Source of the DNA: Bacillota bacterium
Lineage (GTDB): Bacteria; Bacillota; Negativicutes; Sporomusales; Sporomusaceae
NCBI GenBank assembly: GCA_017889705.1
Contig: JAGGAB010000005.1
Span: 62,001 to 126,000 of the forward strand
DNA: 64,000 nt
Direction of reading: 5' to 3'
The notes under the pieces are model-generated. The model did no database searches. It saw nothing but the letters and a program-made list of their open reading frames with translations, and had not been told where the DNA came from. Positions 575 through 60,476 of this stretch are shown piece after piece. Within the stretch, counting starts at the first letter, position 1. Each line of letters opens with the position of its first letter. The translations under genes were made by a program, and so were the position numbers.

Positions 575-604
575 ATAAAAGCCCCGGCGCATTACGGCCG
601 AGGC
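575..604 (-). terminator. Terminator of the PAS histidine kinase gene
   Basis: A GC-rich stem (581-588 with 597-604, one G-T pair) overlaps the kinase stop codon. On the minus strand it is followed by TTTTATTT. Confidence 0.75.
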
Positions 605-2100
605 AAACTGTTTTTTTCTGTTGCATTAAAGCGAATATAGAAAGCTGTGCCGTCTGCGCCGGTAGATACTTCAATCTTGCCCTTGTGCCGTTCAACAATG
701 CCATAACATACCGGCAATCCGAGGCCTGTGCCATTATGCTTGCTGGTTATAAACGGGGTACCCAGTTTAGCTAATACCTGGGGTGAAATGCCTGGTCCTT
801 CGTCCTGTACGACTAAAACAACCTGCCCATTTTCCTCATAGGTCCGAATGGTGACAACACCCGGGTGAGTCATGGCCTCAAAGCCATTGCGTACCAGATT
901 AAGCAAGAGCTGTCTAATTTCTTTTTCATTTAAGCATAATGACTTGATATTACCCAGCTGTAGTTCAATATCATTGCCGGCAATGACCGCATCTGTTGTC
1001 ATCAAGGGTTCTATGGCCTTGATAACTGCGTTTAGATCGGTTTCAACCTGACAAGCCGGCGTCGGCCTGGCTACCGACAAAAATTCGGAGAGGATGAGAT
1101 TCGCCCGGTCTAATTCACTGATCATAAGATCAAAATAATCCTGATAGGCCTTACACTCGTCCTTCTTGCTCAGCATCTGTAGAAAGCCGCGCACCGTAGT
1201 CATCGGGTTACGGACTTCATGGCTGATGCCTGCTGCCATTTGACCCACAAGATTTAGGCGATCAAGGCGCACCAGCTCACTTTTCATCACCCGGACATCA
1301 GTCACATCGGTAGCCATTCCCATGATGTGGCGTTTGCCTTCAATCATAATTTCTTCTGCCGAGAATATCGCAAAGCGATTCTGCCCGTCTTTGGTAGTAA
1401 ACGCAATCTCTTGATTACGAATATAGCCTTTTTTACAAAATTGACGGGCAAGCTGTTTGATTGTCTCAGGTGTACAGATGCCCAGCTCAAGTACAGTATG
1501 CCCAACTACCTCTTCTTTTTTCCAGCCGGTTCCTTTCAGGAAACTGCTGCTAAAATCAATAATCCGGCCTTGTCGGTCATGGATGCACATTAAATTTGGT
1601 GAAACATTAAAGGCCGTGTAAAACCGTTCATTGGCCCGGCGCAGTTCGGCCGTACGTTCAGCTACAAGTAACGATAACTGCTGCTGATAAGTTTCCAGCT
1701 CTTTTTGCAATTGAATATGCCGTGTTATATCTGCTACTGTCAGCAACAAGCCAATACAGACTTCATCCACTTCCAGCCGTTTAAGTGTCCATTCAATATG
1801 GCGCGAAGAATTCGGGGTCTTCCAGCTAGAAGCGGTATACACGCCGCCGGTTGCCAGAATGCGTTTGGCAATTGCCGTTAGATTTTCAGCCTCTACAGCC
1901 CCGATTTTTTCGCTTAAAACCGAAGTAACCGTGCGTCCGATTAGCTTGTATGAGGGGCTTGACACTATATCGGCAAAGAGATTATTAACTTGCGTAAATC
2001 TCATTCGCGTATCAATCAGCGCAAGACCGACCGGCGCCTGTTCCAGTATCGCCACAAGTGTATCCCAGTTTGACTTATGCGATATATCAGCACACTGCAC
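592..2100 (-). CDS. Soluble PAS-PAS sensor histidine kinase
   Basis: Two-component sensor kinase of 502 residues. In order: PAS 1 (about 13-125), a coiled linker (about 130-165), PAS 2 (about 160-270), a HisKA helix pair with GISHEVRNPM and likely phospho-acceptor His294, then an HATPase domain with N box NLVRNGFEAM, G1 box DEGPGI and G2 box GTGLGLP. No membrane segment is visible, so it should sense an intracellular signal through the PAS domains. The HEVRNP H box and soluble PAS layout resemble sporulation kinases that feed Spo0F/Spo0A; that role is inference. No response regulator is adjacent, so it is an orphan kinase. The GTG start has a GGGAGG box eight bases upstream. Confidence 0.9.
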   Translation of the reverse strand: MQCADISHKSNWDTLVAILEQAPVGLALIDTRMRFTQVNNLFADIVSSPSYKLIGRTVTSVLSEKIGAVEAENLTAIAKRILATGGVYTASSWKTPNSSRHIEWTLKRLEVDEVCIGLLLTVADITRHIQLQKELETYQQQLSLLVAERTAELRRANERFYTAFNVSPNLMCIHDRQGRIIDFSSSFLKGTGWKKEEVVGHTVLELGICTPETIKQLARQFCKKGYIRNQEIAFTTKDGQNRFAIFSAEEIMIEGKRHIMGMATDVTDVRVMKSELVRLDRLNLVGQMAAGISHEVRNPMTTVRGFLQMLSKKDECKAYQDYFDLMISELDRANLILSEFLSVARPTPACQVETDLNAVIKAIEPLMTTDAVIAGNDIELQLGNIKSLCLNEKEIRQLLLNLVRNGFEAMTHPGVVTIRTYEENGQVVLVVQDEGPGISPQVLAKLGTPFITSKHNGTGLGLPVCYGIVERHKGKIEVSTGADGTAFYIRFNATEKNSLPRP

Positions 2101-2348: not shown

Positions 2349-2607
2349 GTACTTTTGCCATGCACAAGTACCAAAAAGTCTAGGCCTGAAGCCTCCACGC
2401 TAACCTGTTCCGGTAGAGATCTGCTTTCATAGCCATATGATATAGTCTCCACTTCAATGCGCGGACCTGAAAAGCCGGGCGATATTCCTAAAACCCGTAA
2501 ACTCGCTACGCTCAAACAGTACGGGTTTCTTAACGGAATACCGCCCGGCTTTTCTCCTGCGGGACGCTTTCTCCGGCAAAGGCCGGGTGGTTTCGGGAGT
2601 TATGAGG
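2349..2607 (+). repeat. Structured dispersed repeat, family 1, copy A
   Basis: This noncoding stretch between rpsR and the kinase matches 38671-38859 in inverted orientation. Shared parts in order: a small hairpin (GTACTT 2349-2354 with AAGTAC 2366-2371), the block TCTAGGCCTGAAGCCTC, and a long two-tier hairpin (outer arms 2470-2488 and 2535-2553, inner arms AAACCCGTA 2491-2499 and TACGGGTTT 2520-2528). A tail with CTCCGGCAAAGGCCGG then GGGAGTTA follows. Copy A carries about 60 extra bases after the GCCTC block. Several stem positions differ from copy B as complementary pairs. The rest of 2101-2758 is AT-rich upstream sequence of the kinase with no gene visible. Confidence 0.8.
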
Positions 2608-10482: not shown

Positions 10483-10514
10483 AAGCCTGTGAGACCTATA
10501 GGTCCCACAGGCTT
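10483..10514 (-). terminator. Riboswitch expression-platform terminator of the CDF gene
   Basis: AAGCCTGTG and CACAGGCTT flank a second tier GACC/GGTC with a TATA loop. The tail on the minus strand is ATTATATTTATTT. Its 5' half is the CCTGTGGGACC segment needed by the upstream aptamer, so the two folds exclude each other. Confidence 0.7.
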
Positions 10515-10568
10515 AACCTGCTGCATGTTTGCCCGGCTACGCCGGTAATAACCGACCGCCTGATCCTC
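10497..10568 (-). ncRNA. NiCo (Ni/Co-sensing) riboswitch aptamer
   Basis: On the minus strand the leader of the CDF gene contains, in order, ATCAGGCGG, a hairpin, GTAGCCGGGC, GCAGCAGG and CCTGTGGGACC. This is the conserved string of the NiCo riboswitch (GCAGCCGGGC, then a CAG...CUGUGGGAC helix). The last segment is shared with a terminator, so metal binding would free transcription of the exporter. A TATAAT box lies near 10575-10582. The match is from memory of the consensus. Confidence 0.75.
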
Positions 10569-10622
10569 TTCTTATTATATTACCACAGCAAACAAAATGT
10601 GTAAAATTTTAAAGGTATTAGC

Positions 10623-38670: not shown

Positions 38671-38859
38671 CGTAACTCCCGTAACCCCTCGGCCTTTGCC
38701 GGAAAAAGCGTTCCGCAGGAGAAACGCCGGGTGGTATTCCGTTAAGAAATTCGTACTGTTTGAGCGAGTTTACGAATTTTAGGAATACTACCCGGCGTTT
38801 CAGCTTTTAGAGGCTTCAGGCCTAGAATTTTTGGTCCTTTTGTTTCATGACAAAAGGAC
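38671..38859 (-). repeat. Structured dispersed repeat, family 1, copy B
   Basis: Inverted relative to copy A. It keeps the tail (TAACTCCCG, then CGGCCTTTGCCGG), the long hairpin (outer arms 38722-38740 and 38782-38800; inner AAATTCGTA 38747-38755 and TACGAATTT 38771-38779), GAGGCTTCAGGCCTAGA, and the small hairpin GTCCTTTTG/CAAAAGGAC (38834-38842, 38851-38859). It lies between the ADP-ribosylglycohydrolase gene and noc. Confidence 0.8.
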
Positions 38860-38878
38860 ACCCCATCCACTTGTAGAC

Positions 38879-38924: not shown

Positions 38925-38961
38925 GCCTCCGCCCCTTAAACTATACACTCGAACATACTTA

Positions 38962-39006
38962 AAAAGGCTGTGAAAAACTTATTGCTAAGTTTTCCACAGC
39001 CTTTAT
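38962..39006 (-). terminator. Terminator of noc
   Basis: AAGGCTGTGGAAAACTTA pairs with TAAGTTTTTCACAGCCTT, with a GCAA loop and a following T run on the minus strand. Confidence 0.9.
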
Positions 39007-60371: not shown

Positions 60372-60397
60372 AGTACAGCAATATAAACAGATACATA

Positions 60398-60476
60398 TTT
60401 TGGCAAACTTATTGAAAAATGAGGACGCAAAGCTATGGGTCTAAGGGTTTTTACCTATGACTGCCAGGTTGCCATC
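60398..60476 (+). ncRNA. Cyclic di-GMP-I (GEMM-I) riboswitch aptamer
   Basis: TGGCAAAC, then GAGGACGCAAAGC and GACTGCCAGGTTGCCA are the conserved GEMM-I blocks. The closing helix pairs TGGCAA (60401-60406) with TTGCCA (60469-60474). GGTCT at 60438-60442 could pair with AGACC (60485-60489) in the terminator arm, offering an antiterminator in the ligand-free fold; if so c-di-GMP would switch the gene off. Confidence 0.93.

Follow-up and report, generated by a model that had tools for sequence, protein, structure and literature searches.

Two copies of an intergenic repeat in the window

The window, a stretch of 64,000 nt from a Sporomusa genome, was found to contain two copies of an intergenic repeat, at the places and in the opposite orientations that a first-pass annotation had reported. 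Copy A (2349-2602) lies between a histidine kinase gene (592-2100, minus strand) and rpsR, and copy B (38671-38860) is flanked by genes encoding an ADP-ribosylglycohydrolase and a parB-like protein; a self-BLAST of the window aligned the two at E ~1e-40. The annotation drew the element in the direction that is plus at copy A and minus at copy B, and the strands given below for its parts are those of the putative RNA, which probably has the opposite polarity.

The core of copy A (minus) is in the long form and comprises the small hairpin H1 (2349-2371), which would be the 3' hairpin of the putative RNA, a linker (2372-2386), an optional insert of 70 nt (2397-2466), and the two-tier hairpin H2 (2474-2549, with its apical tier at 2492-2527). 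In most relatives, the linker is complementary to part of the H1 loop, whereas the loop of copy A is shortened. An outer module on the putative RNA 5' side (2603-2707, minus; right limit set by eye against relatives) extends to the edge of the rpsR terminator, the adjoining terminator-like hairpin at 2709-2751. Copy B (plus) has the compact form, composed of H2 (38726-38796, apical tier 38748-38778), the linker (38819-38833, CAAAAATTCTAGGCC on the minus strand), and H1 (38834-38859). A terminator-like hairpin with A and T runs (38961-39004), similar to hairpins present in Sporomusa sp. KB1 (G001), S. ovata (G007), and Sporomusa genome G008, is situated in the gap that separates copy B from the parB-like gene; the limits given here for copy B are those of its core.

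The paired differences between the two copies noted in the annotation are real, namely AACCCG/CGGGTT versus AATTCG/CGAATT in the inner stem, C-G versus T-A at one outer pair, and A-T versus C-G at one H1 pair. The insert, which had been put at about 60 bases and attributed to copy A, is present there but measures 70 bases and is shared with 18 other copies in the same genome: in the alignment, the block was seen in 19 of 41 own-genome core copies (22 being compact), and 18 of the 19 block-bearing copies fit the sequence pattern used for the insert. No match listed by Rfam 15 overlapped the element, either in the window at gathering thresholds or in sets of 9 and 6 loci at E up to 10 and 5. Elsewhere in the window, a c-di-GMP-I riboswitch (60392-60476, plus) and a NiCo riboswitch (10498-10577, minus) reached the Rfam gathering score.

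Fold, covariation, and coding potential

In the drawn direction, the core of approximately 190 nt is composed of H1, the motif CAAAAA, the linker N'TC(A/T)AGGCC, the closing helices, the two-tier H2 with its conserved tip CTCGCTNCGCTCA, a small hairpin, and a terminal GGCC that pairs back onto the linker. Changes on both sides were observed in 26 of 46 pairs among 33 Negativicutes sequences, and in 45 of 46 pairs in an alignment of 98 model matches, which take in other phyla and some partial matches. In the latter set, 91.3% of cells were paired, compared with 36.2-54.9% when the partners were slid, and none of 500 shuffles reached any covariation measure; since alignments A3 and A6 were fitted to models, such counts lean towards the fold. 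The structure of the opposite strand likewise showed changes on both sides in 48 of 57 pairs, with 90.3% of cells paired against 35-49% with slid partners. Compensatory change is thus beyond chance in several helices, and every helix of the fitted alignment shows it. The annotation had proposed from two copies that the fold was selected or otherwise maintained, a view that is strongly supported, the pairing lying far beyond chance by slid-partner and shuffle controls; Infernal models recovered many more copies, and pair counts, used in place of R-scape, retained the covariation.

A contact between the H1 loop and the linker adds to this architecture. Among the matches listed, the loop was complementary to the linker at 6 of 6 positions in 86 of 115 extracted elements, and in those elements that fit the counting pattern the varying loop base matched its linker base in 103 of 104 and 54 of 55 cases (157 of 159 together), with three pair types in each of the two element sets. 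The motif used for the scan fixed part of the linker and the tip, but neither the varying base nor the H1 loop. The apical stems were also nearly fully complementary although their sequence varies freely: with arms chosen for best pairing, 110 distinct elements gave 1001 Watson-Crick, 6 GT, 43 AC, and 12 other cells on the drawn strand. Stems of this kind could be palindromes that templated repair (quasipalindrome correction) keeps perfect, with no selection acting on the fold, but closing helices 3 to 5 and the loop-linker contact covary outside the main palindrome arms, and the hairpin tip is conserved in sequence, so that we regard this explanation as highly improbable.

In 20 of 41 loci the core is traversed by open reading frames of at least 80 aa, and in alignment A2 two frames stay open across it in 19 and 17 of 32 rows. 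No codon-position bias was found in the 27 Sporomusa rows, in which variation was even (0.26, 0.23, and 0.26 bits); core lengths are spread over the three residue classes modulo three, and only 25 of 115 motif-scan and viral elements among the matches listed had the best frame open. A coding gene in the core is not supported on these grounds, and the open frames are read as a probable effect of shared ancestry.

Distribution of the family

The source genome contains at least 41 matches to the core or its H2 half, and two further places in it were matched with copy A as the query. The family was held by 13 of the 41 genomes searched, our own included. In a sample drawn evenly across the phylum and searched under stricter filters, 7 of 149 genomes (again including our own) matched at E <= 1e-6, four of them solely in the hairpin part. 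Another Bacillota genome (G066; loci L243 and L250) showed seven matches to the hairpin part alone, at model positions ~63-146, which suggests a hairpin-only relative of the family.

A two-piece motif scan of named genomes detected at least 113 stretches. Among the matches listed, most belonged to Bacteroidota, including Flavobacterium, Parabacteroides, Flammeovirga, Bacteroides luti, Dysgonomonas, Chitinophaga, Pedobacter, and others; the remainder comprised at least five Negativicutes records, at least two from one Bacillota MAG, and at least one each from an Ignavibacteriales MAG and a MAG labelled Thalassovita. Model R2, trained on 33 Negativicutes sequences only and searched against 58 of these loci, recovered the same architecture outside Negativicutes in 61 rows at E <= 1e-5; the loci having been retrieved by the two-piece motif, only the remainder of the fold is independent. 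Four viral contigs matched. Queried with copy B and two Bacteroidota copies, 72,556 plasmid records yielded partial matches (23-35% of the query covered) in three, of which one belongs to Sporomusa termitida; 50,697 phage records queried with copy B and one Bacteroidota copy yielded none. Phages and plasmids were consequently rejected as carriers for the queries tried. Among the papers listed for Sporomusa repeats, MITEs, structured RNAs, and SINE-like elements, no title or abstract opening describes the family, and papers containing the motif letters were judged, from title and abstract opening, to do so by chance.

Insertion sites and genomic context

Comparison with relatives revealed filled and empty alleles at four loci. 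At the site of copy A, the matched flanks are 595 bp apart in our genome versus 165 bp in KB1 and 172 bp in G008, and in all eight relatives read at this site a hairpin with A and T runs precedes rpsR, with the element present in none. At the site of copy B, 405 bp here correspond to 139 bp in S. acidovorans (G004), and 486 bp to 241 bp in G005. In the corresponding region, KB1 has a copy in the other orientation on the parB side, where S. ovata and G008 have none; a different gene lies on the far side, and the KB1 copy is presumably an independent insertion. This insert of 352 bp is situated between ATAACTAT and CAAAAAGGGGCTGTGG, the terminator beside it is kept, and TAT is possibly duplicated, a 3-bp repeat seen at this one site only. 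At locus L047, a 532-bp unit occupies the place where KB1 and G004 carry a terminator hairpin and ~40 further bases, and at L055, a 365-bp unit together with another repeat of 113 bp stands where G008 has a bidirectional terminator. The mobile unit is longer than the annotated interval, at 352, 365, and 532 bp in three sister-species copies whose limits were set by eye. Of the five insertions read, those of copy A, KB1, L047, and L055 are at an intrinsic terminator or replace one, the replacements being the latter two, and the unit ends are AAGAAA/TTTCTT-like. Judged from these alleles, the family has moved recently in Sporomusa.

Other repeats accompany some copies. The 113-bp repeat (L055:1287-1399; ~89-99% identity), directly beside one element copy, occurs at dozens of places in G001, G007, and G008. 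A similar hairpin, GGGGCTGTCGC..GCGACAGCCCC, was located ~60-150 bp before the core in many own-genome copies (e.g., L010, L016, and L065) and could represent an outer module common to them or a repeat of its own.

Regarding gene context, a simple ORF rule resolved both neighbours of 30 of the 41 own-genome copies (the other 11 being left out), of which 16 lie between convergent genes, 13 between tandem genes (7 and 6 in the two orientations), and one between divergent genes. Among the matches listed, 99 resolved motif-scan copies, mostly from Bacteroidota and excluding 24 elements, were distributed as 29 convergent, 53 tandem (28 and 25), and 17 divergent, compared with 45, 149, and 59, respectively, in 253 background gaps of at least 150 bases from the same loci. 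The absence of an orientation preference with respect to genes argues against a cis-acting mRNA element.

These sites bear on the proposal that the element is a portable terminator or mRNA 3'-end module, selected at each site and propagated by terminator-to-terminator recombination instead of transposition. Consistent with it, the filled L047 and L055 alleles lack the terminator hairpin that the empty alleles have, the A and T runs of the L055 empty-allele terminator resemble the ends of the unit, and own-genome copies are frequent between convergent genes and nearly absent between divergent ones. The KB1 insertion, however, is clean and has kept its terminator, the 99 two-sided motif-scan copies listed have no orientation to genes, and a 190-nt multi-branch fold with loop-linker pairing is needless for a terminator. 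The proposal is, in our opinion, very unlikely.

Strand of the putative RNA

The polarity of the element was assessed through wobble pairs. RNAalifold gave 57 pairs at -58.2 kcal/mol with 170 GU and 19 AC cells for the opposite strand, and 46 pairs at -39.3 kcal/mol with 18 GU and 12 AC cells for the drawn strand; after these counts, our first reading, in which the RNA was the drawn strand, was dropped. As a control, a cobalamin riboswitch of the same genus, represented by 29 distinct sequences, was treated alike; its true strand showed 180 GU and 3 AC cells, and the wrong strand 23 and 28. Three nearly invariant columns contain 94 of the 170 GU cells of the element, and the pairs 54-113 and 66-105 are among those that toggle between GC, GU, and AU. 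A strand-neutral count, which drops pairs with under half Watson-Crick cells, favoured the opposite strand by 39 to 23 (53 to 20 without two divergent G040 rows), with 52 to 13 for the riboswitch. In the variable helices of the R2 structure, non-Negativicutes rows among the matches listed gave 102 versus 23 for the opposite strand, seven pairs being left out. With the R1 structure (82 of 98 rows kept, one pair left out), both groups together had 68 AC and 55 GU cells on the drawn strand, a slight, near-equal lean in the same direction. Additionally, two Sporomusa units carry a T-run hairpin on the putative RNA strand, at its presumptive 3' end; a scan for an end-terminator consensus found three against 0.8 expected in L055 and one against 1.0 in L047, and no consistent promoter or terminator motif was detected around the motif-scan copies among the matches listed. 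The opposite strand, minus at copy A and plus at copy B, is thus the more likely RNA strand, so that the direction drawn in the annotation is probably reversed; its suggestion of an RNA gains support from the direction of wobble and less from the one GU/AC count that is near-equal.

The main rival to an RNA-level explanation is a MITE- or REP-like repeat acting as DNA, whose single-stranded or cruciform fold would be seen by a transposase without any RNA. IS200/IS605 and RAYT systems serve as models for such recognition. The near-equal GU and AC counts with the R1 structure would be in keeping with this rival, as would wobble rarer than in the riboswitch (9.1% versus 13.9% over all pairs, 2.2% versus 3.5% under the strand-neutral filter) and the lack of orientation to genes. 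The GU excess on one strand, the loop-linker pairing, and the multi-branch stems speak against it, as do the few plasmid matches and the absence of phage matches for the queries tried.

Candidate mobilizing functions

Genes for candidate mobilizing enzymes were sought in the genomes searched. Y1_Tnp was present in all 13 family-holding genomes and in 18 of 28 others, a distribution that favours the DNA-level rival, and RVT_1 in 12 of 13 and 14 of 28, the exception among holders being G040, in which no RVT_1 was found, a point against the RNA-level explanation; both associations are weak and may follow genome size. The locus of the only full Y1 gene of our genome (RAYT-like; L069, G000:C106) did not match the core. 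Its flanks carry GGGACA...CTGTCCC repeats at 1096-1124 and 1916-1948, which constitute a separate REP-like family. A RAYT partner was rejected on this sole locus, which also counts against the DNA-level rival; weighing both sides, we consider that rival unlikely, with a real chance of being right. For the same reason the label REP-type in the RAYT sense, offered in the annotation, is unsupported, while its label MITE-like was borne out insofar as the repeat is short, mobile, and devoid of genes.

Several copies in G008 are broken at the apical loop, for which reason an autonomous version with a gene in that loop was considered. It was rejected, the break being the end of another repeated element: all eight matches to one repeated end join the core half at the apical loop (loci L286-L291 and L295-L298; the sequences of five such ends were read), and a search for this end in our own genome (G000), G001, and G007 gave no match. 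We read it as a probable insertion-sequence end for which the hairpin tip would be a landing site, since all the joins fall at the apical loop, and it does not supply the mobilizer. Such an insertion resembles those of REP-targeting insertion sequences, IS1397, ISKpn1, and IS621 being reported to insert in REP sequences (PMC1525189).

Proposed mechanism and relation to known elements

Taken together, the element belongs to a real and widespread repeat family that has moved recently and whose fold covaries strongly. The explanation we prefer, with a probability of about 0.58, is that of a mobile repeat, non-autonomous and lacking a protein gene, whose core is conserved for the fold of its putative RNA. 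The core of ~190 nt would be kept because of the RNA fold of the strand opposite to the first drawing; an RNA would be made from the element, and a putative trans-acting enzyme, supplied by the host or by another element, would recognize the folded RNA and copy it to new terminator-flanked sites, after which most copies would be passengers at gene 3' ends. A more specific version, which we hold to be quite unlikely, treats the element as the bacterial equivalent of a SINE: its non-coding RNA, comprising the closing helices, the hairpin with its tip, and a pseudoknot at the 3' end, would share one conserved fold in Bacteroidota and Negativicutes, and a reverse transcriptase of the host would retropose it in trans into intrinsic terminator edges. 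Eukaryotic SINEs are non-coding, dispersed, and thought to be mobilized by an enzyme encoded elsewhere. The element is likewise non-coding and dispersed, its reverse transcriptase partner being hypothetical.

Several known systems share individual features with the family. REP/BIME repeats with RAYT are similar in being interspersed, palindromic, intergenic, present in tens of copies with mosaic neighbours, and hit in the hairpin by an insertion sequence; the element differs from them in its far greater length (190-nt core), its multiple branches, its loop-linker pairing, the occurrence of one architecture in two phyla, and the different repeat carried by the full Y1 gene of our genome. The reported criterion for REP/RAYT is a short palindrome with a GTAG/GGAG tag at its foot (PMC3733652). 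Bacterial MITEs resemble the element in being short, gene-free, mobile, and multicopy, with filled and empty sites, but the element shows no clear terminal inverted repeats with target duplication, and its fold covaries. Group IIC introns target terminators; like them, the element inserts beside or into intrinsic terminators and would be RNA-based, but it encodes no protein, and no Rfam intron family matched in the loci scanned. BOX elements of streptococci are modular repeats with an optional inner block, as is our element, but they probably differ from it in sequence and fold, and the family described here spans Negativicutes and Bacteroidota.

Most interspersed repeats described from bacteria are short DNA palindromes, whereas here one multi-branch fold with a loop-linker contact, its stems freely changing yet matched, recurs in two phyla. 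Should selection act on the RNA, the family would represent a tractable bacterial mobile non-coding RNA, whose naturally filled and empty alleles could test the effect of the element on transcription ends and whose covariance model could serve in hunting the mobilizing enzyme.
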